Origin: Planctomycetota bacterium
GTDB lineage: Bacteria; Planctomycetota; Phycisphaerae; WQYP01
Assembly: GCA_021831565.1 (NCBI GenBank)
Contig: JAKBMM010000032.1
Location: forward strand, 1-35,427
Length of the DNA stretch: 35,427 nucleotides
Reading direction: 5' to 3'
A program made the translations under genes and the position numbers. Below are positions 17,339 through 35,427 of the stretch, in pieces. Each line of letters starts with the position of its first letter. Position 1 is the first letter of the stretch. The notes beneath the pieces are model-generated. The model ran no database searches. It was not told the origin of the DNA and saw only the letters and a list, made by a program, of their open reading frames with translations.

Positions 17339-17908
17339 ATGAAGAGATTGACGGGTTCACTTTCGTTGCACAGGCGGTTCCTGCTGCCGGTCACGATGGG
17401 CGGCTTTCTGCTGTTGGCGCTGGGGGCGTCCTGGGGCGTGGAAATGGTCCAGAACCAAACATCACCCTTGCGGGCCGTGACATTTGGGCCAGCCTTGTCA
17501 TTGAGTCCGAGAAACATTCCTACCGCCGGTGCGCCCGCCGGGCGCGTATTGGCCCAGAAAGCGCTTTCGGTACAGGTCCAGGGGCATCGGCGAATGATCG
17601 TTTATTTCCTGCGGCCCCTTGCCGCCAATTCCAAAAACGCTTCGGTCCAACAAGCATCGTTGCGGCTTTATGACAAGCTGGTGCAGGGGGATGGGCGGCC
17701 GGTCCGTTTCATTTCGATCCGCTGGCTTTATGGTCCGCAGGTGATATACACGTTTCAAGGCGCCTGGCGGAATGGATTCGTTTTCCTGGCGGCCACGTCC
17801 CACGGGACGAAGCTTAAGTCCATAGGTTACTTCGGTCAAAGTCCGCCCCTGCCGGCGGACAATGCCAATTTCCATCGGATCGTCGCCACACTCCGGAATT
17901 CCCGGTAA
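17339..17908 (+). CDS. Unknown exported protein, 189 aa
   Basis: Not recognised. From ATG 17339 it opens MKRLTGSLSLHRRFLLPVTM followed by GGFLLLALGAS, a signal peptide or anchor. The remainder (residues 45-189) is a small alpha/beta-looking domain with RMIVYFLRPL, RLYDKLVQGDGRPVRFISIR and VFLAATSHGTKLKSIGYF. No Shine-Dalgarno is obvious; GTG at 17333 is an alternative. It is the first of three co-directional genes (gaps 41 and 15 bases) that probably form an operon for envelope proteins. Confidence 0.6.
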   Translation: MKRLTGSLSLHRRFLLPVTMGGFLLLALGASWGVEMVQNQTSPLRAVTFGPALSLSPRNIPTAGAPAGRVLAQKALSVQVQGHRRMIVYFLRPLAANSKNASVQQASLRLYDKLVQGDGRPVRFISIRWLYGPQVIYTFQGAWRNGFVFLAATSHGTKLKSIGYFGQSPPLPADNANFHRIVATLRNSR

Positions 17909-17949
17909 ATTTCATTACAATACAAACAATACAACAGGTGCCATCCAGC

Positions 17950-19563: not shown

Positions 19564-19578
19564 AGAAGAAGGTCGACC

Positions 19579-20337
19579 ATGAGGCGATTTCTCAAAGCAA
19601 TGCTGGCGGTGGTCATCCTGGCGACCCTGGTGACGCTGGGAGTCGATGTAAGCTATTATATGCTTTCGCGCCAGGCGCGGATGGAGAAACTGCAACAGGA
19701 ACGCGATCATCTTCAACGGGTGATCAATCGGCTGACCGGCAAGACGCGGCGCGCGGAACTGGTGGTGGACGGCCAGGTGCTCAACGGCCGGGGCCAGGTC
19801 CTCCAGACCACGCTGTTGTGGCGGGAATTTACCATTGGCCGCGGCGGCAAGGAGGTCGCCCTGCCGATGCGAAAGATTACGATTGCCGGCGATATGCCGC
19901 ATGTGGACGGCATCGTTTTAAAATTCCAGAACAAGTATGTGGAAGACGGCGATCTGCTGCGGGGAAAATCGCTGGTGTTTTTCCGGAGCATCTATGGCAA
20001 TTCGCAGGCGCCGGACCAGGGAGTCTCCCTGCTGGGCAGGGGTGGAGTACCGGCGGTGCTGCTCGGACCACATAATCGCCGGAATATATTCGCGCAGTCT
20101 CTTTGGAATAAAATCTGGCAGCTATTAAAACATCCGTTGCTGGCCAAAAAGGAAGGGCTGGACGTGGTACAGGGTGAGGCGGTCTACCGCCCGGTCAAGC
20201 GCGGCCGACTCTATGTGATATACCTGCGGAACGATGGCGGCCCGGAATTCACGGTAGCGCCGGGAGAATCGAGCCTCGTCGACGAGCTGCTGAACCAGGC
20301 CAGCCAGGCTCACTCGCGCGTGTCCGGTTCGCCATAA
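19579..20337 (+). CDS. Unknown single-pass membrane protein with coiled coil, 252 aa
   Basis: MRRFLKAMLAVVILATLVTL forms an N-terminal membrane anchor. A short coiled coil (about 32-52, ARMEKLQQERDHLQRVINRL) follows, and then a beta-rich soluble domain with VVDGQVLNGRGQVLQTTLLW, EVALPMRKITIAGDMPHVDG and VFFRSIYG. No catalytic motif is recognised. The start is preceded by aagaagaagg about 6 bases upstream. It sits 15 bases after the 17950-19563 gene, so the two are probably cotranscribed and may interact. Confidence 0.65.
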   Translation: MRRFLKAMLAVVILATLVTLGVDVSYYMLSRQARMEKLQQERDHLQRVINRLTGKTRRAELVVDGQVLNGRGQVLQTTLLWREFTIGRGGKEVALPMRKITIAGDMPHVDGIVLKFQNKYVEDGDLLRGKSLVFFRSIYGNSQAPDQGVSLLGRGGVPAVLLGPHNRRNIFAQSLWNKIWQLLKHPLLAKKEGLDVVQGEAVYRPVKRGRLYVIYLRNDGGPEFTVAPGESSLVDELLNQASQAHSRVSGSP

Positions 20338-20400
20338 AACCATCAATAGGGGGATTAAGAGCCTATCTATTGCGATAGACTCTAACGGTAAACCTCGCTC

Positions 20401-21639
20401 TTACCTCACGTGGAGGGCGGATACCGGAGAGGTTTTCCGCGAGGCGATGGCCGCCAGCGCTGCGGCGGCGAATTGCGATTCCGGGAGCGTGTTAAACGGA
20501 CCGAAGCTCAGACGAGTGGTTCCCACATCGGTCGGAACAGCCATGTCCGAGGGCTGGTCCGTGCCCATGGTACGGTGCGCCAGCGGCGCGCAATGCAGCC
20601 CCGCCCGGGTAAGGATGCCGAATTCTTTCTCCAGTTGATCGGCCAGAGCCAGCGGCCCCCGGCCCTCAATGCGAACGCTCCATACGCCCACGCGGTCCGC
20701 CATGTTCCGCGGCCCGAAAAACCGCAACTCATCCACGCCGGCAAGGCCCTCCAGGAATGTTGTGCCGAGCGCCCGTTCATGCGCGGCGATGTTCGCAACT
20801 CCCCGTTGAAGAATCCAGGCGATTCCCTCCGAAAGCCCCGCCAGACCGATGGCATTGTGTGAGCCAGGCTCCCAGCGATCGGGCATAAAGTCGGGCTGGG
20901 TGTCGCGTTCACTGACCGATCCGGTGCCTCCCTGACGGGATGTGCGCAGATGCTTTTCCAAACCGGGGCGAATGTACAGACAACCCGTTCCCAACGGACC
21001 CAGCAGGCCCTTGTGGCCGGGACAAGCCAGAAAATCAATACTCTGCGCCTGCACGTCGATCGGAAGGTGGCCGGCGGTCTGCGCCGCATCCACCAGAAAC
21101 GCCACCTCCGCCCGGCGGGCGATGCTCCCGATCTGTGCGATGCGCTGCACCGTACCGGCAACGTTGCCGGCGTGCGCCATGGCGATCAGTCGCGTCCGCG
21201 GCCGGATAGCCTTGCGAATGTCTTGCGGATCAACCCAACCGGTGGCCGGGTCCGCCGGTATGCGGGTCTGGGTAATCATCCGCCAGCGCACCAGATCATT
21301 CAAAGGCCGGAGAATGCTGTTGTGATCCATGGCGGTGCAGATCGCGTGATCACCCGGCTTGAGCCATCCATGGATAACCATGTTCAGCGCATCGCTGCAA
21401 TTAAGCGTGAAAATGAAATGATCGGGATTTTCGCCGTTAAAAAGCGTGCAGAGTCGTTGGCGGCAGATGCGGAGCACCTCGGCCGAAGCGCGCGCCTCGG
21501 CATAGCCGCCGCGACCAGCCGAGGCGCCGATATGCTCGGCGTAATGGATCATCGCCTGGAGAACTTCCGGCGGCTTGGGAAAGCTGGTAGCGGCATTATC
21601 AAGATAGAGCCGATTTTTCGACAACCGTATTTCCGACAT
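20401..21639 (-). CDS. Class-V aminotransferase, cysteine desulfurase family
   Basis: PLP protein of 412 residues. It has LYLDNAATSFPKP near the start, TAMDHNSILRP, VDAAQTAGHLPIDV, the Schiff-base lysine in ACPGHKGLLGPLGTG, and the candidate catalytic cysteine in RAGLHCAPLAH. This wording is that of the stand-alone 'cysteine desulfurase family' rather than SufS or IscS. It likely releases sulfur from cysteine or a related substrate. The ATG at 21639 was chosen because the homology starts there; aagga lies 12 bases upstream and a GTG at 21642 gives shorter spacing. A longer frame to 22059 is only a shadow of the HNH gene. It is a second desulfurase besides sufS and may serve a different acceptor. 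Confidence 0.88.
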   Translation of the reverse strand: MSEIRLSKNRLYLDNAATSFPKPPEVLQAMIHYAEHIGASAGRGGYAEARASAEVLRICRQRLCTLFNGENPDHFIFTLNCSDALNMVIHGWLKPGDHAICTAMDHNSILRPLNDLVRWRMITQTRIPADPATGWVDPQDIRKAIRPRTRLIAMAHAGNVAGTVQRIAQIGSIARRAEVAFLVDAAQTAGHLPIDVQAQSIDFLACPGHKGLLGPLGTGCLYIRPGLEKHLRTSRQGGTGSVSERDTQPDFMPDRWEPGSHNAIGLAGLSEGIAWILQRGVANIAAHERALGTTFLEGLAGVDELRFFGPRNMADRVGVWSVRIEGRGPLALADQLEKEFGILTRAGLHCAPLAHRTMGTDQPSDMAVPTDVGTTRLSFGPFNTLPESQFAAAALAAIASRKTSPVSALHVR

Positions 21640-21922
21640 CACTATAGGGTTCCTTCCGCCCGGCTCGCGCGGGCGTTGAATCAACGTTATGATAGGATTT
21701 GGCTGCGCCGGATTCAATTTTTTCAGGAATGGGCGGGGGGCCGGCAACATGAAATTGTTGCCGCCGGATGTGGTTCGAGCAATGACGCTGTGTACTTCAC
21801 ACCCTAATGGCCGCGCCACGCGTGACACCCAGCCTCCCGGGCACTTGTGGCCGGACGATGAATGCATCACAATACCCTGGTTGGTTGTGGACGAACCGCC
21901 CGCCGCGCGGTTTCTTGGAGCG

Positions 21923-22564
21923 ATGAACGTGTCGGAAAGCCCGCCGGTATCGGGTCTCTCGTGTAATGTGCTGGTGCTCAATCGCCTGTATATGGCGATT
22001 CGTGTCGTTAGTGCACGGCGGGCTTTTTCGCTCCTGTGCCGCAATCTCGCTGAAGTCATCGCGGTGGAAAATGGGGCCTATCTCGCCTATGACATCGAAT
22101 CGTGGATGGAAATTTCGCAACTCAAGGCCCAGTTCGAGCGCGACTCGCATGATTTCGTCCGCACCGTCCGTTACGAAATCGCCGTACCGCGAATCATCCG
22201 TCTGCTTGGCTACGACCGCCTTCCGCGGCAGGATGTCAAACTGAATCGGCGCAACATTTACGCGCGGGACCACGGCGTCTGTCAGTATTGCAGTAAAAAA
22301 TTCTCCACCAGCGAACTTTCGCTGGATCACGTGATTCCACGCGCCATGGGCGGCAAAACCGTCTGGGAAAATCTGGTTTGCGCCTGCGTTTATTGCAATG
22401 CCCGCAAAGGCGGTCGCACGCCCCAGCAGGCCGGCATGCACCTGACGCGTCTGCCACTGAAACCCCGGCGGAATCCCGTGATTAACGTGCGGCTGGGGTC
22501 GGATAAGTACGCCTCGTGGAAGCATTTTCTCGACCATGCCTATTGGAGCGTGGAACTCAAGTAA
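21923..22564 (+). CDS. HNH endonuclease-family protein
   Basis: Protein of about 213 residues with a C-terminal HNH nuclease domain. IYARDHGVCQYC, then LSLDHVIPRAMGG, then WENLVCACVYCNARKGGRTP give the HNH core with two CxxC zinc pairs and DHVIPR as the catalytic H. The N-terminal part (SCNVLVLNRLYMAIRVVSAR, then YDIESWMEIS and YEIAVPRIIRLL) is shared with a family of HNH proteins I recall as frequent in Planctomycetes and other soil and aquatic bacteria; its role is unproven. The start is uncertain: ATG 21923 fits where homology begins, but its ggag is only 2 bases away, and ATG 21749 is possible. It overlaps the convergent rrf2 stop by 8 bases. Confidence 0.8.
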   Translation: MNVSESPPVSGLSCNVLVLNRLYMAIRVVSARRAFSLLCRNLAEVIAVENGAYLAYDIESWMEISQLKAQFERDSHDFVRTVRYEIAVPRIIRLLGYDRLPRQDVKLNRRNIYARDHGVCQYCSKKFSTSELSLDHVIPRAMGGKTVWENLVCACVYCNARKGGRTPQQAGMHLTRLPLKPRRNPVINVRLGSDKYASWKHFLDHAYWSVELK

Positions 22565-23021
22565 TTTTTGCGGGCATATTCTTTTTCGATGGTTTCCTGG
22601 GCAGACACAAAGGATGGCGGCTTTCGTCGCGACCGGTCAACAGACTGGCGATGGTCGCCTGCCTGAGTGTTTTTTCGACATGGCCGATAGCATCATCCAG
22701 GCGGCGATGCAGAGGGCAAAGGTCGCGCCCATGCCAGGTCAGCGCCAAGGGACAGGTCTCGATTCGCCGCAGCGGATCCACCGCCTGTATGACATCATAA
22801 AGCGAGAGTGCGGCGGAATTCCCCAACAGAATGGAACCACCGTGCAGACCACGCTGCGACTTGACCAGGCCGGCGCGACTTAATGTTTGAAGAATTTTTG
22901 CCAAATAACCCCGAGGCACCAAGGTGGCGGCGGAGATTTGCTTGTTGGTCGCTGGTTCGCCGGCCCGGCTGGCCAGATACACCATGACACGCAGAGCGTA
23001 TTCACCCGTTTGCGAAAACAT
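22557..23021 (-). CDS. Rrf2-family transcriptional regulator
   Basis: Winged-helix regulator of 154 residues. MFSQTGEYALRVMVYLA is the family N-terminus, VPRGYLAKILQTLSRAGLVKS the recognition helix, and RGLHGGSILL the wing. Rrf2 proteins such as IscR and NsrR sense Fe-S status or NO through three cysteines. Here C90 and C102 have exactly the outer IscR spacing (12), and H105 matches the IscR histidine ligand, but the middle position is W96. The protein may bind a cluster with a different ligand, or none. The ATG has ggag 5 bases upstream. A promoter lies inside the end of the upstream coaB-like gene. It may control the suf operon or the neighbouring desulfurase; this is inference. Confidence 0.88.
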   Translation of the reverse strand: MFSQTGEYALRVMVYLASRAGEPATNKQISAATLVPRGYLAKILQTLSRAGLVKSQRGLHGGSILLGNSAALSLYDVIQAVDPLRRIETCPLALTWHGRDLCPLHRRLDDAIGHVEKTLRQATIASLLTGRDESRHPLCLPRKPSKKNMPAKIT

Positions 23022-23068
23022 GGAGTCTCCGAAAGGTCATGAATGATTAAAGTAAACCTTCTCATCCT

Positions 23069-23096
23069 ATTTTATGTTCGTCGCGTTGGGTGTCAA
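23069..23096 (-). promoter_or_regulatory. Promoter of the rrf2 gene
   Basis: Minus strand: -35 TTGACA (23091-23096), 16-base spacer, -10 TAAAAT (23069-23074). The -35 overlaps the stop region of the CoaB-like gene (stop at 23093-23095). Transcription would begin near 23062, about 40 bases before the ATG. Confidence 0.65.
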
Positions 23097-23845
23097 CACA
23101 ACCCCGATTCACGTTTTAGATGCGCGGCGGTGTAATCGCGCAATGCCGCCGGAAGATCGCCGCGCGCCACACGCCTTGCGCCCCGGGCGTCGATCAACCA
23201 CGCCGCGGGGGAATCTCCCCGCACCATCTCCAGCGTATTGGCCACGATCGCATCCGCCCCGCTTTGCCGGCGGCTCGCCTCGGCAATGGCCATCAGATCT
23301 TTTTCGGAAATTCCAACCTCCAGCTTGAATTTGAACAAAAGCCCGCGATAGTTCCAGGCGGTGCGGAACTGATCGATCAGTTTGAGCGTTCGTTCGGCCG
23401 CGATGACAAGCCGCTCGTGCGCGCCGCGGATCTTACGTGCCTGCACATCCTGCACTATCCATTGATATTGCGACGGATGGGTCCCCTCAATCCGCCGGCT
23501 TTCCATGATCTGGTACGCGCCGGTGGGTTTGTAATCGCTGACCGCGGCGGTCATGAACACCGCTTGCGTTTTCCGACGGGCCAGATGCGTGGGAATCATC
23601 CGGGCCAGATCACTATGGGTTTGAAAAAAGCCGGTCGTGAGTACTCCACTTGCCCCCCGTACCTCGTGGCAATAGCGGGCGTGTTCGGCATTGGCGGTCA
23701 GCAGAGTGACATCGGCGATATCGAGCATTCGCAACGCGATATCCAGCCCCGTCCGGCCCGTAAAGATGTTGGTCCACCAGCGAACCTCATCAATAGGTTC
23801 GCGCGTGCTGCCGGCGGTGATCAAAACATGCGGGGGACGCGTCAT
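23093..23845 (-). CDS. coaB: CoaB-type phosphopantothenoylcysteine synthetase domain protein
   Basis: Protein of 250 residues resembling the CoaB half of CoaBC, which joins 4'-phosphopantothenate and cysteine with a nucleotide triphosphate in CoA synthesis. VLITAGSTREPIDEVRWWTN at 8-27 and the FTGRTG element form the nucleotide-binding loop. MTAAVSDYKP corresponds to the AAVADYRP motif, KLIDQF lies in the middle, FKFKLEVG stands for the GFAxET region, and DAIVANTL matches D-x-IVAND. The usual N-terminal CoaC (flavoprotein decarboxylase) domain is absent, so decarboxylation must be supplied elsewhere. The sequence is divergent at several core positions, so a CoaB-like role is probable but not certain. 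Confidence 0.75.
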   Translation of the reverse strand: MTRPPHVLITAGSTREPIDEVRWWTNIFTGRTGLDIALRMLDIADVTLLTANAEHARYCHEVRGASGVLTTGFFQTHSDLARMIPTHLARRKTQAVFMTAAVSDYKPTGAYQIMESRRIEGTHPSQYQWIVQDVQARKIRGAHERLVIAAERTLKLIDQFRTAWNYRGLLFKFKLEVGISEKDLMAIAEASRRQSGADAIVANTLEMVRGDSPAAWLIDARGARRVARGDLPAALRDYTAAHLKRESGLC

Positions 23846-24479
23846 AAATGCGCATAGTAACCGCGGCCACGATCAACCGGCCAGTCCCGCCGCGTCCCAT
23901 TCACAATCGGGACCATTTCCTAAGCCGGCCCGCCGCCTGGCATTGCGTATGATCATAGTCTTATAATCATCGCGTCCAGCAGGGAAAAATTGAACGGCAA
24001 AAGAAAATCGCAAAATGATTGATCCAACGGACTTTCATTGCCGATACAAAGTTATGTTCGGGAGCCGCATGTCGTGTGCTTGTGTCAACGGCCAAGTCTC
24101 GATGTTGACAAGGTACGGCTGAGAAGTGGAATTTGTGGAAAAAACTTGGATTTCCTCCGCCAGCTCGTTAGAATATACACTACGTGGCGGTTCGGCGCCG
24201 GTTCATCATCTATTACCGCCGCCGGGCGGATGGGCATATCAGCGGGCAGTGATTGGGATCGTTGGCCGCTGCTTCAAGGGTATGGAGATTGGCGCCGGTG
24301 TGAAATAATTACCGGATCCTGCGCGATTGGAGCGCCGCGCGATGGCACCAGAGAGTAAAAGCGATGGAGAGTCGGAGATGCATGGTGATGGGAATCCACC
24401 GGCGAAATCATATCGAGCGCCATTGTGTGGCGCTGCAGGGCGGTCGACGGTGGTGCGTTAGACGAGAGAGAGGTTTATC
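23846..24479. other. Long intergenic region without a supported gene
   Basis: 634 bases between the CoaB-like gene (minus) and the GGDEF gene (plus). Short open frames (for example 24038-24358) have no recognisable composition, family or ribosome binding site. A TTGACA at 24105-24110 has no convincing -10 partner at 16-18 bases. No riboswitch motif was recognised. Confidence 0.5.
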
Positions 24480-25658
24480 ATGTCAACTTTGAATCCACTC
24501 GATCCGTTTGCGGCGGGCGCCGCAAAGGGGCGACTGGGACGTAAGACGTCAAAAAAAGTCGGAAAAATTCCCGCCGTTTCCACTCCCGCTGAAACGTTCC
24601 CGGGCGGCGTTGCCGACGATTCGCACCAAAACGTACGGCGGCTCTCGCCGGCCGCATCAGATCCGCTCACCGGGGGCGCCGCCGAACACGCGCCGGCGAA
24701 ATCTCCGGAGGAGCGGACGCCAACCATTCCGTCCGCCGCGGCGGAGGCGCGTGGCGGAATCAAATTGCCCGCCGCCGCACAAATGCGGGTCGCCCAAGAG
24801 TTGCTGGCGGGCCGGGACGTGACGCCGGTGGCGCTGGCGGTTCTACAGAACAACCTTCGCTGGCCCGGCGCGTTGCGGGTGGAACCGCACCTTATGGAGG
24901 ATAGCCCCCAGGCGACGACGCCCGGCGATGCCGCGGTTGCGCCGCTTCATTTTGGTTCTGAAAATTTCGGTTCGCTGGTTCTGGAGGGGGGGGCGAAAAG
25001 TCCCCGCGTCGCCGAGCAATTGAACCATTCCGCGGCGTGGCTGGCCTCCTTGCTGGCCGTGGCGCGGCAGCACCAGACCCTGCGCCGCCAGGCGGATACC
25101 GACGAACTCTCCGGCGCCTACAACCGCCGCTATTTCCTGGAAATGGTTCCCCGCCTTCTGGAGCGGGCGCGCCAGGAACGATTCTGCGTGACGATATTGC
25201 TCTTTGATATCGACGATTTCAAGCAGTACAATGATCAGTTCGGCCACGCCGCCGGCGATGCCATTATCCGTGAGGTCATCGGTCTTCTGCGGCGCTGCAC
25301 GCGCAGCCGCGATTTGGTCGCGCGGATCGGCGGCGACGAATTCGCCGTCGTGTTCTGGGATGAGGGAGCGGTCCGCCAACCCGACAGCCAGCATCCCCGG
25401 AGCGTTCTGAGCATCGCCCATCGGTTTCGTAAAGCCGTTGCCGAACACCCCTGGAATACCGAGGGCGGACCGATCGCCGGCCGGCTGAGCATCAGCGGCG
25501 GCCTGGCGACGTTTCCCTGGGACGCCCGGGATCTCCCCGAGCTGATGGCCGTTGCCGATGGCGAACTGCTGCGGGCCAAGTCTCTGGGCAAAAATGCGAT
25601 TGTGCTGGCCGGCCCCGGCGCGGCGCCGGCGAATTCCGTTCCGAACAATCATGCCTAA
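24480..25658 (+). CDS. Diguanylate cyclase (GGDEF domain), 392 aa
   Basis: Makes cyclic di-GMP from two GTP. Residues 1-100 are Pro/Ala-rich and disordered. Residues about 100-195 are an uncharacterised, possibly GAF-like sensory part (PLHFGSENFGSLVLEGG). A short helix leads to the GGDEF domain from about 207: TDELSGAYNRRYFLEMVPRL, FDIDDFKQYND, and GGDEF at 284-288. RSRD at 275-278, five residues before GGDEF, is the I-site for product inhibition. No membrane segment is seen, so it is cytoplasmic. gagagagg lies just before the ATG. It precedes the pilus/secretin cluster on the same strand, suggesting c-di-GMP control of that machine. Confidence 0.9.
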   Translation: MSTLNPLDPFAAGAAKGRLGRKTSKKVGKIPAVSTPAETFPGGVADDSHQNVRRLSPAASDPLTGGAAEHAPAKSPEERTPTIPSAAAEARGGIKLPAAAQMRVAQELLAGRDVTPVALAVLQNNLRWPGALRVEPHLMEDSPQATTPGDAAVAPLHFGSENFGSLVLEGGAKSPRVAEQLNHSAAWLASLLAVARQHQTLRRQADTDELSGAYNRRYFLEMVPRLLERARQERFCVTILLFDIDDFKQYNDQFGHAAGDAIIREVIGLLRRCTRSRDLVARIGGDEFAVVFWDEGAVRQPDSQHPRSVLSIAHRFRKAVAEHPWNTEGGPIAGRLSISGGLATFPWDARDLPELMAVADGELLRAKSLGKNAIVLAGPGAAPANSVPNNHA

Positions 25659-25754
25659 GAGCGTAGGGGAGATGATATCGGGCCTTCCGCCATCTTCTCG
25701 CCGGCGCTCCAACCCGAACATTGCACCGCCGCGCGGCGGGAATCGCCGCAGTTG

Positions 25755-25784
25755 TTGACACGAATCGCAATTCATTGATATATG
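25755..25784 (+). promoter_or_regulatory. Candidate promoter upstream of the pilM-like gene
   Basis: TTGACA (25755-25760), 18-base spacer, TATATG (25779-25784). It is followed by a direct repeat of attcattgatat (25770-25781 and 25786-25797), a possible operator. It lies about 100 bases upstream of the gene start. Confidence 0.45.
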
Positions 25785-25837
25785 ATTCATTGATATCATG
25801 ATGGCCGTTTTTCCGCCGGCGCCGCCGCGGGGGAGGC

Positions 25838-25868
25838 TTGACGCGGGATACGTTCCCGAGTTTATAAT
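25838..25868 (+). promoter_or_regulatory. Second candidate promoter of the pilM-like gene
   Basis: TTGACG (25838-25843) and a perfect TATAAT (25863-25868) with a 19-base spacer that contains the inverted repeat cggga-N5-tcccg (25844-25858). A spacer of 19 is long for sigma70. With such a dyad inside, it resembles MerR-type regulated promoters. The start would be about 15 bases before the ATG. Confidence 0.45.
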
Positions 25869-25889
25869 GAAATAATTGTCGGAGGTCTT

Positions 25890-27896
25890 ATGCCGCGTTT
25901 GCAGACAGCCTGGGGTATCGACGTGGGGACCACCGCGCTCAAAGCGATGAAAATACGCCGCGATGGCGAGAAAATCTATCTGGAAGCGATGGAAGTGATT
26001 GAGCATAGCCGCTTTCTGAGCGAAGCGGACGCGGATCGCAAGGAGATCGTTCGCGAAAGTCTGGCTAAATTTCTGGAGCGCCATCCGCTGCGCGGCGAAC
26101 GGGTCTTCATCGGGGCGGCGGGATCGACCAGTTTCGCCCGCTTTGTCAAACTGCCCCCGGTCGAGCCGCGGAAAATACCCGAAATTGTCCGCTTTGAGGC
26201 CATGCAGCAGATTCCCTTTCCGCTGGACCAGGTGATCTGGGATTTTCATAAGTTCCAGAGCGCGGAAAGTCCGGAAGTGGAAGTCGGGATTTTCGCCATC
26301 AAGACGGACCTGGTCTCGCAGATACTGGCCGATTTCCGCAATCTGGGCATTACCGTGCACGGCGTGCAGATCGCCCCCCTGGCCGTTTACAACGCCCTGG
26401 CGTACGAAGGCGTCGGCCGCGACAAGGGGACCATCGTCATCGACGTCGGCGCCGATCATACGGACCTGATCATCATCGATCAGGGGCGGCTGTGGCTGCG
26501 CAACATCAACCTGGGTGGCAACAGTTTCACCGAATCGCTGGCCCGGAGTTTTCGCTTCCCCTTCCCGAAGGCCGAAACACTCAAGAAAAATGCCGCCACC
26601 AGCAAATGGGCGCGCCAGATATTCCAGGCCATGCGGCCCACCTTCGCCGAGCTGGTCGCGGAAATGCAGCGTTCCGTCGGCTACTACAATGGTTCGCACC
26701 GCGACAGCCGGCTCGAACGGATCCTGGGGCTGGGCAACCCTTTTCGCCTGGCTATATTACAAAAATATATTCACCAGTATATGACAATAGATACCCGGCG
26801 TCTCGAGGGGTTCAACCGCCTGGAGTCCCTGGACACCCGGCTCACGGCCGGTCTGGGCGACCGGGTCCTGGGTCTGACGACGGCTTACGGCCTGGCCCTG
26901 CAGGCGCTGGGGATGGCGAGCATCAACTCCAACCTTCTGCCGGTGAGCGTCGCCCGGGAAACGCTCTGGCGGAGAAAGTATCCGTGGTTCGCCGCCACGG
27001 CGGCGGCGTTTGTCGTCGGCGCCGCCGTGGCGGGCGCCAGGTGCTGGATGGATTCCGCGGCGTTCCACGCCGCGCTGCGCCGCAGCGGGATAAGCAACCT
27101 GAGCGCGCAACTCAACGAGGCCGCGCAGTGGCGCGATGAGTATAACTCTCTGAACAACACCTATCGCCGGAGCCTGCGCAAGGCGCAGTTTTACCTGGCG
27201 CTCAACAAGAGCCGGAACGTCTGGCCGGCCATCCTGCAAACCTTTTATGCCGCGCTGCCCCAGGCCTCCCGGCGGGCCGCCGGGCGGGGACCTGATTGGA
27301 AAATCGTCATCCAGAGCATGCGGAGTGTTTACGCATCCAACCTGACGGCGGCGAATCCGAACCAACCCGCGGCGCCCGGGGCGCCACCCCTGAACGGCGC
27401 CCCGGCAAGCGCTCCGCCCGCCGGAGAAGGATTCCGAGTGTTCGTCACCGGTTACACCCCGTGGAAACATCCGTTGCGAATCATTGAGCATTTTCGCGAT
27501 GCGCTCAAACGGACCGCCCCGCTTAAATCAAACAAACCTTTTTACATTGTGATTCCACCGAATTCACTGGCGTATATGAGAATCGCCCAGATGCGGGGTC
27601 ATCGCTCCGCCGGAAAATCCGACGTCGGCTTTGTGGCCTGGGGATCGCATCCCGGGCCATTCGCCAAAGTTTTCATGCCTGATTTTCTTCCCCCTCGCCT
27701 GAGGCGCCCATACCGGGCGACGGGCGAATCGAATTTCAATTCCGGACGGTCCGGCGCCGGATCCTTTGGCCGGGGTACGGGCGGCGGGTTGAAAAACATG
27801 ATCATTGATCCGAACAGCGGAAAATCGCTCAAGAACGCCACCGCCTTCCGGCTGACTTTTCTGATATACCTCCGGAAGGAAACGGTGCGGCGGTAA
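25890..27896 (+). CDS. pilM: PilM-PilN-like fusion protein of a type IV pilus/T2SS-like system
   Basis: Protein of 668 residues. Residues 1-360 are PilM (actin-like ATP-binding fold): WGIDVGTTALKAMKI at the start, FVKLPPVEPRKIPEIVRFEA, VGIFAIKTDLV, TIVIDVGADHTDLIIID and RLEGFNRLE. One transmembrane segment (about 364-386) follows. The remainder looks like the periplasmic coiled-coil and ferredoxin-like part of PilN (ISNLSAQLNEAAQWRDEYN). In Proteobacteria PilM and PilN are separate and bind each other; here they are one chain. The C-terminal 180 residues are extended, Gly/Pro-rich and uncharacterised. ggagg precedes the ATG by 5 bases. It is first in a run with the PilO-like, third-membrane and secretin genes. 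Confidence 0.85.
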   Translation: MPRLQTAWGIDVGTTALKAMKIRRDGEKIYLEAMEVIEHSRFLSEADADRKEIVRESLAKFLERHPLRGERVFIGAAGSTSFARFVKLPPVEPRKIPEIVRFEAMQQIPFPLDQVIWDFHKFQSAESPEVEVGIFAIKTDLVSQILADFRNLGITVHGVQIAPLAVYNALAYEGVGRDKGTIVIDVGADHTDLIIIDQGRLWLRNINLGGNSFTESLARSFRFPFPKAETLKKNAATSKWARQIFQAMRPTFAELVAEMQRSVGYYNGSHRDSRLERILGLGNPFRLAILQKYIHQYMTIDTRRLEGFNRLESLDTRLTAGLGDRVLGLTTAYGLALQALGMASINSNLLPVSVARETLWRRKYPWFAATAAAFVVGAAVAGARCWMDSAAFHAALRRSGISNLSAQLNEAAQWRDEYNSLNNTYRRSLRKAQFYLALNKSRNVWPAILQTFYAALPQASRRAAGRGPDWKIVIQSMRSVYASNLTAANPNQPAAPGAPPLNGAPASAPPAGEGFRVFVTGYTPWKHPLRIIEHFRDALKRTAPLKSNKPFYIVIPPNSLAYMRIAQMRGHRSAGKSDVGFVAWGSHPGPFAKVFMPDFLPPRLRRPYRATGESNFNSGRSGAGSFGRGTGGGLKNMIIDPNSGKSLKNATAFRLTFLIYLRKETVRR

Positions 27897-27902
27897 GCCC
27901 CC

Positions 27903-27924
27903 CCCGCCAGAGCGCTCTGGCGGG
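27903..27924. repeat. Perfect 22-bp palindrome between pilM-like and pilO-like genes
   Basis: cccgccagagc followed directly by its exact reverse complement gctctggcggg, with no loop. It starts 7 bases after the pilM-like stop. As RNA it would make a stable hairpin and could set processing or relative expression of the genes; as DNA it could be a REP or protein site. Confidence 0.65.
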
Positions 27925-27946
27925 ACAGGGCCGGTTGGAGATGTGG

Positions 27947-29365
27947 ATGAAGTTTCTCAAGGCCAATCTGATTTTGCTTATCTGCGGCGCGGCGGTGTTG
28001 CTGGCGGTGGTGGCGCTATACTATCCGATCGGCGCCCAAGCCCGGCGTTTGCGGCAGCAAATGAAATCCCAACTGAGCCTGGCGGAACGGGCCGCGAGTC
28101 TCGAAAAAACCCCGATTCATATTCTCGGCGAAAAACCGTTCGTCGGTCCGGTGACGCCGGCGATCATCAAGGTCAAGAAGGAAGTTCAGCGACGCATAGA
28201 GGCCCAGGCCAAACGCCTTCGCCGGATGGTGGAACGGTTTAACGCCGCGGGCCGGGTTAAGTTGCCATCATCGCCCAAAGGCAAGGTGATTCCCCTGCTT
28301 GCCGGGGTTCCCCAACCCCATCTGTTGCCGCGCCCGTCGCGGAGTTATTACGTTCGTGGTAATTTCCGGCGGGCGTACCGGCGACTTTTCGTGAATAACC
28401 CCCGCGATCGCCGCGCCTGGCTCACGCAACTGCGCGCCGGCGCGCCGCCGACACCCAAGCGGATCAGCCGCATCCTGCGGGAGAAACTGCGAAGACGGGC
28501 GCGTCTGATGCCGCGGAATACCACGGGCAGCATCCATGCCTCCCGGCACGCGGGTCGCCACAAAAGGCGGTTGCTTGGCGACCTGACACGACAAATGGTT
28601 TTTCATGCCGCCGCGACGTGCCGCATCTACGCCGACCCCGCCAGTTTTCAGGAACGCCAATTCGTGCAAAGCTCCACTCCGCCCACCGCGGATCAAATTT
28701 ATGAAGCTTTTGTCGATACCTGGCTCCAGGGAGATGTGGTCAAGGCGATTGCCGCGCTCAACAAGGGCAGCGCCAATGTGGGTCAGTCGCCGGTCAAGCG
28801 GCTCCTTCACATCACGGTTGGCGCCGCGGCGGCCACGGCGACGGGCGCGACGCCAGCGAGTCGATTCGCACGGCCGGTTTTGGTTGGCGATGGCGGGTTG
28901 TTTATCCGTGGTTCGACCGGCGCCACCCCCGCGGCGATGTCGGCGGGTATGCCGGGCGCCGGTTCGGCCCCCGGCCGCTTCGGCGTATATGCCCCCCCAT
29001 CATCCGCGTATTCGCCTTCTCCCGGCGTTTCCGCCGCCGGCGGCGCCATTCTCACCGGCCACCTGACCAACCCGCGCTACCAGGTCACCTTGATGAACAT
29101 CAGCCTGGTGATTGAGCCCTGGCAGATCAATCACTTCATCGACCAGCTTTACCGCCTCAATAACGGCTACACCGTTCTTCAGATACAGATGCGCACGGTC
29201 GATCCCATCGATGCTTTGACCAGTGGCTACGTGTATGGAAAAGTTCCCGTGGTCCGCGCGGATATACTGGTCGAGGCGATTTTTTTCACGAGTTGGAACG
29301 GGAAAGTCATGCCGGCGGATTACTGCGCCAGGTGCGGGGTGCCCCCACCATCGCCGGCGCCATAG
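27947..29365 (+). CDS. PilO-like membrane-anchored protein with a long insertion, 472 aa
   Basis: ATG at 27947 (ggag 6 bases upstream) gives MKFLKANLILLICGAAVLLA, one N-terminal membrane helix with periplasmic remainder. A coiled coil (about 30-90, with RRLRQQMKSQLSLAERAASL) follows, the arrangement of PilO/GspM proteins. Residues about 100-220 are very basic and rich in Arg/Pro, and about 280-365 are Gly/Ala/Pro-rich; both are unlike classical PilO (about 200 residues). The end holds a compact beta domain, TLMNISLVIEPWQINHFIDQ, then LYRLNNGYTVLQIQMRTVDP, which could be the ferredoxin-like fold. The role is inferred from position and topology, not from motif identity. Confidence 0.6.
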   Translation: MKFLKANLILLICGAAVLLAVVALYYPIGAQARRLRQQMKSQLSLAERAASLEKTPIHILGEKPFVGPVTPAIIKVKKEVQRRIEAQAKRLRRMVERFNAAGRVKLPSSPKGKVIPLLAGVPQPHLLPRPSRSYYVRGNFRRAYRRLFVNNPRDRRAWLTQLRAGAPPTPKRISRILREKLRRRARLMPRNTTGSIHASRHAGRHKRRLLGDLTRQMVFHAAATCRIYADPASFQERQFVQSSTPPTADQIYEAFVDTWLQGDVVKAIAALNKGSANVGQSPVKRLLHITVGAAAATATGATPASRFARPVLVGDGGLFIRGSTGATPAAMSAGMPGAGSAPGRFGVYAPPSSAYSPSPGVSAAGGAILTGHLTNPRYQVTLMNISLVIEPWQINHFIDQLYRLNNGYTVLQIQMRTVDPIDALTSGYVYGKVPVVRADILVEAIFFTSWNGKVMPADYCARCGVPPPSPAP

Positions 29366-29420
29366 CGATTGCGACGGCCCGCCATGGGGCGGGCGGTATG
29401 GGAACGCGGGAATATGAATT

Positions 29421-31088
29421 ATGCAGGTTAAGAACATAACTCCGATCGAACGCCACGTGGAAAAGATTTTACTCCTCGTGGGCATTCTGTTCGCGGGTTG
29501 GTTGATCTATCGGAATTTCGCAGGGAATCCCGAGAGTGTGCCCTTGCCCGGCCAAACGCGGGTGCTTCCCGGCCAGGTGGGGCCGCGGATATCCCAGTCG
29601 GTCGGCAAACTCGAAAACCTTATCCACAACCAGGCGAATCACCGGTTCAACCCCGCGCGCCTGCCGGATTATGTCGGGCGGCTCGTGCGCGAGCAGACGG
29701 CGCCGCTCCCGGCGCCACTGGCGCTTCTTCCGCCGGTGTCGATCGGTCCCTGGAATACGCCGGTCATCAGCTCGCGGAAAGTTCATTTGCATAAACTTAT
29801 ATTTGTCGTTCCGAAAGTTCCCGCGCTGGTCGGATTGAAGGTCAAACAGAACCGCGGCGTCGCCGTCATTTCCTTAAACAAGACGCGGGACCTCGTCTGG
29901 GTGAAAGTATCCGCCCGATTTCCCATGGCGCGGTGGCGGGCGGATCTCAAGGGCGGCGCCCATCTTCCCGCGGGCCGGAGCGGTCTGCCCCCGCCGTATC
30001 GCCGCACTACATTTTTCCGTCTGCGGGCGCGGCGGGAGAAACTGCTGGCGGACGGGCGATGGGGGCGCTGGAAAAGCATTAAGGGCTTCTATGTTGAGCC
30101 GCCGCCAATGATCGATCTGGCCAATCAGAGTGCGCCGGCGATCCCGCAGGCGCTGGGAGTTCTGGATCGGCAGGTTGGCCGCATTCTCACCCCCGCCTTC
30201 TACCCCATCGAGTCCATTCATCTGCGGATCATCCGTCCGCAAACCAAACCTCATCATCCCGTACGGCCGGGTGGATTGCGCCGCGGGCGTGTTCCCGGCG
30301 GTACAGGACCCGGCTCCGTCTTCCACGCACGGCAGGCTCCGGGAAGCGTCTACCACTCCAGAGGCGCCGCGCCCCTGGCGCCGTCCAACCGGACGCCCTC
30401 GCCATTGTCCATCTACACTTCCCACGGCGGAAGCACTCGCCCGCCGGTAATATCCACACCGGCCCGCGTGACTATGGCCAGCCTCCTTTCCAAGCGATCC
30501 ATTAAGGTCTTTCTCTACGACACCAGCGCCAAGCCCGGTTCCAGCTACCGGTATGAGTTGCGCGTGCTGTTGTATAACCCGACATTCAGATTTCCTTACC
30601 GTCTGAACCATCCGGCCGCCAGGCGGCGTCCCTGGCTGGCGTCGCCCTGGAGTCTTGCGAGTCCGGTTGTGGGCGTGCGTAACAGCATGTACTTCTTCCT
30701 GGCCGGCGGAAATGCGACCCATGGCCGGGTGGAATTCCAAATTTTTAAGTGGGTGCACGGTATGTGGACCTGGGGCGATGAGACTGTTTCCGCCGGCCAG
30801 CCGATCGGCACGGTGGAGTCGGCTTCCCTGATCGACCCGAAGACCGGCAGACTGGTCTATAAGCTGGTGAATTTCAACACCGGTTACACGCTTGTCGATG
30901 CGCGCCGTAATTCCTCCGGCGCCAGCGTGACCGCGGTTGTCCGTGGTCCGCACGGCCGGTTGCTGCTGCGAAATTCCGCCTGGGACAACGCCAATCCGCA
31001 GTGGGCTAAGTTGATCAAAGCGGTGAATCAGGCCGGCTCGCCGGCGGTGTCCGCCGGGGGCGCCGGCCCGTCTCCCGCCGTCCCCTAG
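29421..31088 (+). CDS. Membrane-anchored protein in the PilP slot, 555 aa
   Basis: Unrecognised by motif. MQVKNITPIERHVEKILLLV, then GILFAGWLIY, forms an N-terminal anchor at about 15-31. The rest is extracytoplasmic. One domain (about 115-215) contains HLHKLIFVVPKVPALVGLKV and a strand-rich segment; a Pro/Ser/Arg-rich linker (about 285-355) follows; the C-terminal domain has SIKVFLYDTSAKPGSSYRYE and RVLLYNPTF, reminiscent of fibronectin-like strands. Gene order (PilM/N, PilO-like, this, secretin) places it where PilP or a GspC-like connector would be. It has no ribosome binding site of high quality (gggaat). It ends with a duplicated stop region at 31078-31099. Confidence 0.55.
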   Translation: MQVKNITPIERHVEKILLLVGILFAGWLIYRNFAGNPESVPLPGQTRVLPGQVGPRISQSVGKLENLIHNQANHRFNPARLPDYVGRLVREQTAPLPAPLALLPPVSIGPWNTPVISSRKVHLHKLIFVVPKVPALVGLKVKQNRGVAVISLNKTRDLVWVKVSARFPMARWRADLKGGAHLPAGRSGLPPPYRRTTFFRLRARREKLLADGRWGRWKSIKGFYVEPPPMIDLANQSAPAIPQALGVLDRQVGRILTPAFYPIESIHLRIIRPQTKPHHPVRPGGLRRGRVPGGTGPGSVFHARQAPGSVYHSRGAAPLAPSNRTPSPLSIYTSHGGSTRPPVISTPARVTMASLLSKRSIKVFLYDTSAKPGSSYRYELRVLLYNPTFRFPYRLNHPAARRRPWLASPWSLASPVVGVRNSMYFFLAGGNATHGRVEFQIFKWVHGMWTWGDETVSAGQPIGTVESASLIDPKTGRLVYKLVNFNTGYTLVDARRNSSGASVTAVVRGPHGRLLLRNSAWDNANPQWAKLIKAVNQAGSPAVSAGGAGPSPAVP

Positions 31089-31099
31089 CCGTCCCCTAG
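31078..31099 (+). repeat. 11-bp tandem duplication spanning the stop codon
   Basis: ccgtcccctag occurs twice back to back (31078-31088, 31089-31099). The first copy contains the stop codon of the 29421 gene. It is a recent slippage duplication that leaves the protein unchanged. Confidence 0.7.
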
Positions 31100-31114
31100 A
31101 TGACCGTTTTGCAG

Positions 31115-31143
31115 TTGCAACACGGGGATGATGGTTTTAGTAT
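31115..31143 (+). promoter_or_regulatory. Candidate internal promoter for the secretin gene
   Basis: TTGCAA (31115-31120), 17-base spacer, TAGTAT (31138-31143). The transcript would start near 31150, just ahead of the Shine-Dalgarno aggag (31157-31161) and the TTG start at 31169. This supports the downstream start, because the ATG at 31100 lies before the promoter. Confidence 0.5.
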
Positions 31144-31168
31144 ACCCTACGATATTAGGAGTAGCGTT

Positions 31169-34100
31169 TTGAACAAGCATACTCGCTCCAGAATTCTGGC
31201 TCTCGGCATCGCGGGCGCTCTGCTTGCCGGCGGGAGTCTGCCCCTGATCCCTCTGGCTATCGCCGGCGTCACAAACCAATCCGCATCCGCGGCCCTGCTG
31301 GCGCGCGGGCAGCGGCTCTACCACGAGAAACAATTCTCAACATCCAAGCAGGTGCTATTGTCCATTGACCCGGCCAAACTTTCCGCGACCGAGCGCACCA
31401 CGCTTGCAACGCTTCTCCTGCGGGTGGACGAGGCTCTCGCCGGCGCGCGGGAGAACAGCCGCATTTTCCGCAACGCCCAGACGGCGCTGCGCGACGGGCA
31501 TCTCGCCCATGCGGTGCGGCTCTATCGTTTGATCCTGGCTGATCCGAACATTCCTCCGGTATTGCGGCGCGAAGCCGACGACAATCTCGCCTTGGCCCGA
31601 GCCAAACAAAAGGCGCTGGTCCCGGCGATGGAAGCGCTTCTTCAGAAAGCCGCCGCCGCGTACAAGGCCGGCCATTTCGACCAGGCGGAGGCGGACCTGT
31701 ATACCATCCAGGTAACTGGAAGCGATTTAGGCTCCCACAATGCGCTGATCCCGCAATACCAGAATCTGATCGCTCAAAAACGCGCTGCGGCGGTGGAGGC
31801 CATAGAACAGGCCCGTCTGGAAAAAATCGCCGCCGCGCGGCGTGCGGCACAACTTGCCGCTGCGCAAAAAGCCCATGCCGCGCAGCTCGTCGCCGAGAAA
31901 AAAGCCGCGGCCCAAAAGGCGGCGCAATTCGCCGCCGCACAGCGGGCTTCTCAACTTGCCGCCGCGCAAAAAGCCCATGCCGCGCAACTCATCGCCGAGA
32001 AAAAAACCGCGGCTCAGAGAGCGGCTCAGCTCGCCGCCGCGAAGAAAGCCGCAGCTCAGAGAGCGGCTCAGCTCGCCGCCGCGAAGAAAGCCGCAGCCGA
32101 GAAACTCGCCGCCGCAAAAATTGCCGCGCACGAAAAGGCTGTGGAATCACAACTCCTGGCCGAGCAACGAACTCAGGAAATGCAGGCGGAAAAACAACGC
32201 CTGGCCCGGGCCGCCCAACTCGCCGCCGCGCAAAAAGCCGCCGCCGCCAAATTACTCGCCGCGCAGCTTGCCGCCCGTAAGCAGGCCCAGGCCGCGCAGG
32301 CGGCCGCCGCTCGCCAGAGCGAATCAGCCCGTTTAGCGGCTCAGCAGAAGGCGGAAGCGGCCGCGCTGGCCGCGCGCGAGGCGGCGGAAAAAAAGGCGGT
32401 GGCCGCAAAACCAGTCGTTTCCCCACCGCCAACACCCGTGGCCGTCGCGGCGGCGACACCTGTGCCGTCAACCCCAAGGCCCACCGTGGTTCCGGCCACC
32501 CAGGCCGCGGCGGTAACTGCGAAAACAGCCGTTTCTTCACCGCCCGCACCCGTGGCTGTCGCAGCGGCGACACCCAAGCCGCCGGCCTCCAGACCCGCCA
32601 CGGTTCCGGCTGCGCCTGCCGCGCCTGCGGCCGCGACGACTCATCCCGTGACGCTTAGTCGCGCGCAGCTCAATATACAGCGTTCCGCCGCTTTGAGCGT
32701 CCTGGCGGACAAGGCCGTTCATGCCGCTCGTTATCATCGGGCGATCGCTCTTTACAGCGACGCCCTGGCGTTGAATCCGCGCAACCAGGCCGCCTCCCTG
32801 GGGCTTAAGAACGCCCAAAAGTTCGCCGCCGGCCACGCTCCCGGCCTGCTGGCGCAAACCCTTTATAACCAAGCCATTGAGGCGCAGCGGGTGGTGGTTC
32901 TTTTCAACGACGACATGCGCTTGTCGACCCAGGCTATGGAGAAAGACGATTTCGTAACCGCTACGGATCGGGCCAATAATGCCCTGGCTTCGATTGCGGC
33001 GGCCCGGCGCCTCTTCCCTCGCTTGCAGTACAAGACCATGAAAGCCCGCGCCCGGCAACAGCTCGCCATGGTTCAGCAGCGCTCCGCGGCGGCCCAGGCC
33101 AAACAGCAGGCTCTGCGCCAGAAGGAAATCCAGCAAAGCCAGTTGCAGCTCGAACATCATCTCGCTCTGGAACGCCGGCATCAGGTCAATCAGTTGCTCG
33201 GGCAAGCCAACGAGTATCTCAAGCGAATGCAGTACGCCCAGGCTTTGGATACGCTCAACCAGGTGGTGGCGATTGCTCCGACCAATAACTCCGCCCGCTT
33301 CATGCGCCGCATGGTCAAGGATCAGATCGAGTACAACAAGTGGAATAAGTACCACAACGAACAGTCGCGTAACCTGCAGATGCAGGAAGTTGAGACCGAA
33401 CGGGCCTTGATCCCTTATCGCAATCTACTGGTTTATCCCAGCGATTGGCCCGAGCTGAGCCGCATGCGCATGGCGGAACGGCGCAGCACGCGGTCGCCGG
33501 TGAATCGGCTGATTCGGCATCGGCTGGCCGCATCGGTCCCCTCGATCATCGTCCACAACCAGCCGTTCTCAGGCGTAGTGGGGCTGCTGCGCAATGAAAC
33601 CGGCACGAATATTGTGGTCAACTGGAACGCCCTGGCCGCCGCGGGCGTCTCCAAACAGACTCCCATCAGCCTTTCGCTGCGCAACGTGCCGTTCAAGAAG
33701 GTTCTTTCCATCGTTCTCCAGCAGGCCCAGGGCGGCGGCGGATCGCGACTCGGTTACAGCATCAGCGAGGGCGTACTGACCATTTCCACGCGGGCGCAGC
33801 TTGCGCAGCAGCAGGTGGTCAAGGTTTACGATATTCATGATCTGCTGGTGCAGGCGCCAAACTTCTCCAACGCCCCTTCGTTCAACCTGCAGTCGGCCAC
33901 GCAGAACACGTCCTCTTCGGTCAGCTCCCAGGGCGGCGGCGGCGCCATGGGAGCCGCCGGCGGCGGGCTCTTCACGGGCTCGGCCAGCACCACGTCGCAG
34001 GCGGGCCAGAGCGCCAAGTTGATCAAGAGCATCACCAAGCTCATCACCAGCACCGTTGATCCGGCTTCCTGGACCGTCAATGGCGGGACCATCGGATCGA

Positions 34101-35128
34101 TCAGCGAGCTCAACGGCCAATTCGTCGTCAATCAGACCCCGAACAATCAGACAAAAATATATAATCTTCTGCAACAATTGCGCGAGGCCCGCGCCATTGA
34201 AATTTCCATCACGACCCGTTTCCTGGTCGTGGACACCAGCTTCCTGAATGATTTTGGGTTCTCCTGGTCACTGGGCTTCCCTTCCGTGGTGGTGAACAAC
34301 CCCCCGGGATCGTCGGCCGCACAGAGCGCCTATGGTTCCATGTTCGGCAATGGTATTGGTCCGCTGACCGTTACAAACGGCACGAACTCCATGACGGTGC
34401 CCACCCCCACCGGCGTCGGCAACAATATCGCCAAGAATTTCAGCCCCTCCTCAGCGCTCAGTGTCAGCGGCAGTATTCTCTCGAACTATCAGTTGAGTCT
34501 GCTGCTCAACGCGGCCCAGGAGAGCGAGCACACCACCAACCTCGAGGCGCCGCGCATCACCCTGTACAATGGGCAGCGCGCCTGGATCGCCGTGACCAAC
34601 CAGCTTAACTTTATCTCCAGCGTAACCCAGAATATTACCGGCAGCGGTCTGGGCGGAATTCCCTTCATCACCACCACGCTGAACACCTCGACCCTTTCCA
34701 CCGGTATTGTTCTCAATGTGCAGGCGACCGTTTCGGCTAATCATCGCTATGTCGAGATGACCGTTCAACCCAGCTTATCGACCCTGACCTCCCTTACTTT
34801 GTTCAGCATCGCCGGTCAGGCGATATCCGGCTCCACCACACAGGCGATTTCGGGAGGCTTTGTGCAGTTGCCCGCCATTCAGACCACTACCGTCGCCACC
34901 ACCGTTTCGGTTCCCGACGGCGGCACACTTTTGCTCGGCGGCGAGCGCCTTTCCGGTGAAGAGGAAATTGAAGCGGGAGTTCCCATACTCTCCCAGATTC
35001 CCATCATCAACCGGCTCTTTACGAACCGCTCCTATGTTCGCGATAACGGCATCCTGCTGATTTTGATCCGTCCGCGCATCATTATCCAGAAGGAATGGGA
35101 AAAGAAGCAGTTCGGCCGCAATTATTAA
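31169..35128 (+). CDS. Giant PilQ/GspD-family secretin with TolA-like coiled coil, 1,319 aa
   Basis: Secretins form the outer-membrane channel of type IV pili and type II secretion. TTG at 31169 with aggag 7 bases upstream gives a signal peptide (RILALGIAGALLAGGSLPLI). Residues 30-200 are TPR-like helices. Residues about 210-414 are an Ala/Lys/Gln coiled coil (LAAAQKAHAAQLVAEKKAAA repeats). A Pro/Ala linker is at about 415-495, and further TPR-like and helical parts run to about 720. An STN/N0-type domain lies near 787-880 (ISLSLRNVPFKKVLSIVL), and an N3-like domain (KLIKSITKLITSTVDPASW) follows. The secretin domain covers about 1110-1310, with LEAPRITLYNGQRAWIAVTN, VSVPDGGTLLLGGERLSGEE, VPILSQIPIINRLFTNRS and LLILIRPRIIIQ. 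Typical PilQ is half this size. It is last in the pilM-like operon. Confidence 0.92.
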   Translation: MNKHTRSRILALGIAGALLAGGSLPLIPLAIAGVTNQSASAALLARGQRLYHEKQFSTSKQVLLSIDPAKLSATERTTLATLLLRVDEALAGARENSRIFRNAQTALRDGHLAHAVRLYRLILADPNIPPVLRREADDNLALARAKQKALVPAMEALLQKAAAAYKAGHFDQAEADLYTIQVTGSDLGSHNALIPQYQNLIAQKRAAAVEAIEQARLEKIAAARRAAQLAAAQKAHAAQLVAEKKAAAQKAAQFAAAQRASQLAAAQKAHAAQLIAEKKTAAQRAAQLAAAKKAAAQRAAQLAAAKKAAAEKLAAAKIAAHEKAVESQLLAEQRTQEMQAEKQRLARAAQLAAAQKAAAAKLLAAQLAARKQAQAAQAAAARQSESARLAAQQKAEAAALAAREAAEKKAVAAKPVVSPPPTPVAVAAATPVPSTPRPTVVPATQAAAVTAKTAVSSPPAPVAVAAATPKPPASRPATVPAAPAAPAAATTHPVTLSRAQLNIQRSAALSVLADKAVHAARYHRAIALYSDALALNPRNQAASLGLKNAQKFAAGHAPGLLAQTLYNQAIEAQRVVVLFNDDMRLSTQAMEKDDFVTATDRANNALASIAAARRLFPRLQYKTMKARARQQLAMVQQRSAAAQAKQQALRQKEIQQSQLQLEHHLALERRHQVNQLLGQANEYLKRMQYAQALDTLNQVVAIAPTNNSARFMRRMVKDQIEYNKWNKYHNEQSRNLQMQEVETERALIPYRNLLVYPSDWPELSRMRMAERRSTRSPVNRLIRHRLAASVPSIIVHNQPFSGVVGLLRNETGTNIVVNWNALAAAGVSKQTPISLSLRNVPFKKVLSIVLQQAQGGGGSRLGYSISEGVLTISTRAQLAQQQVVKVYDIHDLLVQAPNFSNAPSFNLQSATQNTSSSVSSQGGGGAMGAAGGGLFTGSASTTSQAGQSAKLIKSITKLITSTVDPASWTVNGGTIGSISELNGQFVVNQTPNNQTKIYNLLQQLREARAIEISITTRFLVVDTSFLNDFGFSWSLGFPSVVVNNPPGSSAAQSAYGSMFGNGIGPLTVTNGTNSMTVPTPTGVGNNIAKNFSPSSALSVSGSILSNYQLSLLLNAAQESEHTTNLEAPRITLYNGQRAWIAVTNQLNFISSVTQNITGSGLGGIPFITTTLNTSTLSTGIVLNVQATVSANHRYVEMTVQPSLSTLTSLTLFSIAGQAISGSTTQAISGGFVQLPAIQTTTVATTVSVPDGGTLLLGGERLSGEEEIEAGVPILSQIPIINRLFTNRSYVRDNGILLILIRPRIIIQKEWEKKQFGRNY
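32012..32095 (+). repeat. Exact 42-bp tandem duplication in the secretin coiled coil
   Basis: Two identical 42-base units (32012-32053, 32054-32095) encode RAAQLAAAKKAAAQ-type text. It is in frame and unmutated, so recent. A wider, diverged repeat (AAAQKAHAAQL unit) precedes it. Confidence 0.85.
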
Positions 35129-35283: not shown

Positions 35284-35427
35284 GTAACCGTTCACGGGCC
35301 TGAAGGAAGAAGTGAAGGTGTAGGACGCCCTGCGAAGTGGTTGTTGACGGTCTGATACAGGAATTCAAAGACGCTGCGTTGTTGTTGCGTACAGGTGGCG
35401 ATGGCGGACCAGATGCGTTCGCACCAT
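35284..35427 (-). mobile_element. End of an IS66-family element
   Basis: The terminal motif gtaaccgttcacggg begins at 35284, matching the solo copies near 8938 and 8986. The transposase C-terminus lies directly inside it. The element continues beyond the window. 35129-35283, between the secretin and the IS, holds no gene. Confidence 0.75.
35292..35427 (-). CDS. IS66-family transposase, C-terminal end, partial
   Basis: On the minus strand the frame from the window edge reads WCERIWSAIATCTQQQRSVF, then EFLYQTVNNHFAGRPTPSLL, PSGP and TGA at 35292-35294. The ERIWSxIATC...AGRPTPSLLP text is the conserved tail of IS66 transposases (IS66_C region). Only about 45 codons are present. The stop overlaps the terminal repeat, as is usual for IS66 ends. 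Confidence 0.85.
   Translation of the reverse strand, partial: WCERIWSAIATCTQQQRSVFEFLYQTVNNHFAGRPTPSLLPSGP

Follow-up and report, generated by a model that had tools for sequence, protein, structure and literature searches.

A PilM-PilN, PilO and secretin locus of Phycisphaerae, a likely alignment complex of an Akkermansia-type type IV pilus

The genes at the locus

The window, that is the whole stretch of DNA analysed, corresponds to an entire contig of 35,427 bp (C5), one of the 86 contigs of a draft genome that is 95% complete. It holds five ORFs of interest, all intact and all on the forward strand, which encode in this order a GGDEF protein, a PilM-PilN fusion, a protein in the PilO slot, an anchored protein called P4 hereafter and a secretin. 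The positions and the order are those given in a preliminary description of this DNA, and the expected GGDEF, PilM_2 and Secretin domains are confirmed. Intergenic gaps of 38, 55 and 11 bp separate the four pilus genes; between the GGDEF gene and the PilM-PilN gene the gap is 231 bp. Given a dN/dS of 0.15 to 0.31 across all five genes in comparison with one congener, which corresponds to purifying selection, these genes do not arise by chance.

Elsewhere in the window, genes resembling a SUF iron-sulphur cluster operon (SufB/C/D, a cysteine desulfurase and a NifU-like protein) were recognised by eye from the translations at 2222-8775 on the reverse strand. At 20401-22564 a cysteine-desulfurase-like ORF (reverse strand) and an HNH-endonuclease-like ORF (forward strand) show a long overlap, and the extended 5' part of one of the two is probably spurious. 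Finally, the end of the contig falls within a short frame on the reverse strand (35295-35426, WCERIWSAIATCTQQQRSVFEFLYQTVNNHFAGRPTPSLLPSGP*), for which the Pfam scan gave no match and which we take to resemble the end of an IS66-type transposase; if so, the assembly break would be explained.

The first gene (24480..25658, +; 392 aa) encodes a soluble diguanylate cyclase-like protein (PF00990, E 1.9e-33) in which the full GGDEF motif and the catalytic domain are present. An I-site RxxD lies 5 residues ahead of the GGDEF motif (RSRD-LVARI-GGDEF), in agreement with the preliminary description of a soluble GGDEF enzyme with an I-site upstream of the machine. Two further GGDEF genes are found in the genome, making three in all.

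The PilM-PilN fusion (25890..27896, +; 668 aa), which is Amuc_1101-like, comprises a cytoplasmic PilM domain (residues 1-340), a TM helix at about 367-385 and a periplasmic PilN-like part. PF11104 (PilM_2) is aligned over positions 1-338 of 340 with an E of 9.9e-31, and the profile match to Myxococcus xanthus PilM (3jc8_Ma, E 4.2e-48) identifies an actin-like PilM. The match to PilN (3jc8_Na) is weak, with an E of 0.0096 over profile positions 345-465, and is one of sequence only. The top NCBIfam match is Amuc_1101_fam with 222 bits against a cut-off of 650, so that the protein is a relative rather than an equivalog member of that family. Hence the fusion proposed in the preliminary description is upheld by PF11104 and by the TM helix and periplasmic part downstream of it. 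No other PilM gene is present in the genome.

The next gene (27935..29365, +; 476 aa, TTG start) encodes an Amuc_1100-type PilO, identified by its structural model (mean pLDDT 84.6) and fold match. The model displays a TM helix and coiled coil, a basic helical insert and a ferredoxin-like core which is split by a disordered Gly/Ala/Pro loop at residues 305-369. With Foldseek it matches Pseudomonas aeruginosa PilO (2rjz) with a probability of 1.00, which supports a PilO fold. With VIA-align the top match is Amuc_1100 (6lad_D; Z 12.2, 169 of 190 residues aligned, rmsd 3.3 A), followed at a distance by PilO 2rjz_B (Z 7.5) and the T2SS proteins XcpY (Z 5.3) and EpsM (Z 5.0). At the sequence level Amuc_1100_fam is matched by 10 of 63 members of the PilO slot (best E 2.1e-4) and no PilO family is among the families listed in the Pfam scan of these members; in this locus, the Pfam and NCBIfam scans returned no curated family for either the PilO-slot protein or P4. 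Residues 105-201 carry a net charge of +23, compared with +9 to +15 in other members of the family; elsewhere in the class the median is -2. The PilO-like protein with a basic and Gly-rich insertion noted previously is thus recovered.

P4 (29421..31088, +; 555 aa) is a single-pass anchored periplasmic protein that occupies the Amuc_1099/PilP slot, based on its conservation and structural model. The model (pLDDT 80.5 overall, above 90 over most of the domains) shows an N-terminal TM helix and an Ig/Fn3-like beta-sandwich whose halves (132-260 and 361-420) flank a disordered Pro/Gly/Arg linker, which varies in length from 40 to 238 residues across the class. It ends in an all-beta domain at about 421-518 followed by a helix, and the size and strand count of this modelled domain would suit a PilP/GspC domain. 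The best VIA-align match is an Fn3-containing receptor (Z 7.5); the match list is filled by the Ig/Fn3 domain and no PilP was seen in it. A PDB sequence search with P4 found nothing, and a Pfam scan of 60 P4 members gave no consistent family. PF04351 (PilP) had no match in 101 genomes, a search in which the control was equally silent. Against the same 60 members the Amuc_1099 family gave a single marginal match (E 0.028), and its model gave short partial matches only in a search of the phylum, none of them in this genome; homology of P4 to Amuc_1099 is consequently not claimed, and neither is homology to PilP. The unrecognised anchored protein of the preliminary description therefore keeps that character, and P4 is the part of the locus that stays new.

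The last gene (31100..35128, +; 1342 aa) encodes an Amuc_1098-type PilQ secretin (PF00263, E 1.7e-24, over the cut-off). An alternative start is suggested by the congener, whose ORF begins at the equivalent of 31169 and would give 1319 aa. The protein contains a signal or TM segment at about 32-50, a TPR at 699-729 (a TPR_1 match in Pfam), a weak STN at about 848-876 and the secretin domain at 1139-1328. An Ala/Lys/Gln-rich stretch (236-440) and a Pro/Ala/Thr linker (440-530) are specific to the family, the Ala-rich segment being found in every secretin of the family and rarely outside it. In NCBIfam, MshL is matched with an E of 1.9e-28 and PilQ (TIGR02515) with an E of 7.6e-23, the latter below the cut-off, while Amuc_1098_fam aligns over positions 88-796 of 805 (E 6e-24) with 84 bits, the cut-off being 750. 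As PilQ measures 757 aa in Thermus (PMC5745081) and 907 aa in Akkermansia (PMC4960237), the previous estimate of about twice the usual size is fair. Judged from the sequences compared, the large size of the secretin and the basicity of PilO are both family-level embellishments.

Conservation in relatives and pilus genes elsewhere in the genome

The gene order was surveyed in 80 loci from Phycisphaerae and related planctomycetes, each count being limited to the loci with room for the gene concerned. PilO comes after PilMN in all 64 such loci and P4 stands next to PilO, in the order PilMN-PilO-P4, in all 55 Phycisphaerae loci; the P4 protein itself was found in 56 of 61 relatives. This core of the order is kept, but its two ends are not. 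Indeed, PilQ is adjacent in 22 of 46 loci, a figure that concerns adjacency only, and a GGDEF gene upstream of PilMN was found in none of the 71 loci of other named relatives with room for one, the arrangement being shared with one congener only. Hence the GGDEF gene, which the preliminary description had grouped with the machine, is a neighbour adjacent in this genus alone and not a part of it, and its status as a conserved module is rejected. At the level of the class, 149 of 150 genomes have PilM and all 150 have PilB-type ATPases, the PilB model also giving matches in T2SS-bearing genomes. An orthodox pilMNOPQ locus elsewhere in the genome, with the present one absent in relatives, would be the opposite situation; it does not apply, since the genome has no other such locus and relatives keep this one.

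As previously described, no pilin, PilB/PilT ATPase or PilC is present in the window, but this means little given that the window is a single contig of an 86-contig draft. T2SSE-family matches were obtained at eight places in the genome, the main ones being on contigs C85, C32, C72 and C62. Distant pilB, pilC and pilin-like genes were found on C85, which carries two PilB-like ATPases, a PilT, a platform protein of PilC/GspF type and several consecutive N_methyl pilin-like genes. A machine without a motor, as the preliminary description had implied, is therefore rejected; a view limited to one contig can suggest such a machine. No secretin or PilM was found on C85. Because C85 is devoid of these and C5 of a motor, pairing the two would be the simplest way of joining an alignment complex with its motor; they are different contigs with no linkage between them.

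Several other features of these contigs were observed. On C85, at about 17000-25500, six consecutive ORFs are found of which five have N_methyl pilin signals. Most of these ORFs read in frame through a direct-repeat family, which has 8 copies of about 156 nt, encodes a peptide like KVVKKSPWRSWRLGGSKP..GGSQNSPPRP and lies immediately ahead of the signal peptide; the true starts probably lie downstream. On C62 (6000-14000), apart from all other pilus genes, a PilT/PilU-like ATPase of 377 aa has right behind it a diverged PilB-like ATPase of 557 aa with a weak score. A third small system is found on C72, with a GspE-like ATPase lacking the N-domain and T2SSF-domain proteins, one of which has a single weak match.

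A putative alignment complex and its alternatives

In Akkermansia muciniphila, Amuc_1098-1102 has been described as a cluster of type IV pili genes (PMC10688800), and Amuc_1098 is a secretin located to the outer membrane (PMC4960237). The locus described here shares with this cluster the PilM-PilN fusion (Amuc_1101), the Amuc_1100-fold PilO and the TPR-bearing secretin (Amuc_1098), and its four slots follow the same order 1101-1100-1099-1098. In contrast, the three Amuc family scores are under the curated NCBIfam cut-offs, the secretin is about 1.5 times longer and has the Ala/Lys/Gln segment, P4 fills the Amuc_1099 slot with no established homology to Amuc_1099, no Amuc_1102 partner was identified here and the motor genes are unlinked to the locus. 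Three of the four proteins match families of Akkermansia, a member of the Verrucomicrobia, so that the machine is no peculiarity of the planctomycete cell plan, contrary to what had been suggested. Compared with the type IVa PilMNOPQ of M. xanthus and P. aeruginosa, PilM is recognised by profile and PilN weakly so, PilO by fold and the secretin by sequence; however, PilM and PilN are fused here, PilO has a basic helical insert and a disordered loop, P4 stands in the PilP position and the secretin has a TPR and no AMIN domain match.

In light of these results, the four genes at 25890-35128 very probably form one operon encoding the alignment complex of an Akkermansia-type (PVC-type) type IV pilus, and the machine is most likely that of a retractable pilus. 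The PilM, PilO and secretin identities bear out the pilus/secretin complex of inner and outer membrane that the preliminary description had recognised. In such an assembly the PilM domain would lie beneath the inner membrane, and the fused TM PilN part would pair in the periplasm with the Amuc_1100-type PilO. P4, anchored in the inner membrane, would extend its Ig/Fn3-like domain and its second beta-domain to take the place of PilP and connect the inner ring with the secretin's periplasmic domains; the secretin itself would be the pore in the outer membrane. A filament passing through this pore would then be powered and built by the C85 proteins, namely the ATPases, the platform protein and the pilin-like subunits. 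We tentatively suggest, with the balance leaning slightly the other way, that in the PVC-type pilus the function of PilP has been taken over by the unrelated family P4, coupling PilO to the TPR-bearing secretin.

That the neighbouring GGDEF protein serves as a dedicated regulator of the machine through c-di-GMP, as the title of the preliminary description implies, is a separate proposal; it is compatible with the pilus explanation, but we regard it as rather unlikely. The complete GGDEF motif and I-site are consistent with such a role, as are the adjacency retained in the congener and a dN/dS of 0.21 for this gene. Furthermore, Pfam places an MshEN domain in both PilB-like ATPases of C85, and one of them (PilB2) has two tandem 24-residue stretches, PLGRVLIKMGRLTREQVHQALAVQ and PIGQVLVELGMISQKDMNFALAAQ, close to the published MshEN-type c-di-GMP binding motif (PMC5013675) except that the spacer is of 10 instead of 5 residues and that P replaces R. 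Any c-di-GMP link would go via this MshEN-bearing PilB, a plausible receptor from its sequence. A dedicated regulator is nevertheless difficult to reconcile with the 0 of 71 other loci in which a GGDEF gene adjoins PilMN, with the 231-bp separation in a region where promoter-like matches around GGDEF and PilMN are no more frequent than by chance, and with the two other GGDEF proteins of the genome.

It is improbable that the C85 ATPases and pseudopilins use this secretin as a T2SS-like exporter of enzymes. The ferredoxin-like folds of PilO and PilN are common to GspM and GspL and, like the secretin pore, are shared with the T2SS GspL/GspM/GspC/GspD set. Moreover, the C85 platform protein scores higher as GspF than with the PilC models, the GspE and PilB models give similar scores for both PilB-like ATPases, PilB2 being slightly better as GspE than as PilB, and one N_methyl gene weakly resembles GspH. 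However, the same genome has a separate T2SS on C32, with GspE, GspF, pseudopilin genes and its own GspD over the cut-off, which together with the secretin at 31100..35128 makes up the two secretins of the genome. In addition, the PilT retraction ATPase of C85 is above the TIGR01420 cut-off and a T2SS has no PilT, the cytoplasmic partner here is an actin-like PilM and not GspL, and the homologues in Akkermansia carry pilus annotations.

In Planctopirus and Gemmata, crateriform structures join the inner and outer membranes and bear pili-like fibres (PMC5394234), a geometry that a secretin and PilMNO would fit, but an uptake device for polysaccharides or other macromolecules made of these structures with their 12-nm dextran-binding pili-like fibres is very improbable here, as they are absent in cultured Phycisphaeraceae (PMC8882080) while nearly the whole class has the operon, and P. 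limnophila with three pilQ genes deleted is viable (PMC11958385). Phycisphaerae isolates do have fimbriae but are devoid of crateriform structures (PMC8882080), which fits a pilus and speaks against identifying this locus with the crateriform structures that Planctomycetia have.

For the type IV pilus reading, the consequences reach beyond this genome. Amuc_1100, a well-known surface protein of Akkermansia, would belong, as a PilO-type component, to the core of a pilus base common to distant planctomycetes, so that its ancestral role is probably structural. P4 is a conserved unnamed family whose role is directly testable, and its takeover of the PilP function, if true, would represent a solution for coupling the inner to the outer membrane different from that of the well-studied type IV pili. 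Lastly, the Phycisphaerae, a class with few cultured members, gain an envelope machine present in nearly all of them, to which their fimbriae could be due.
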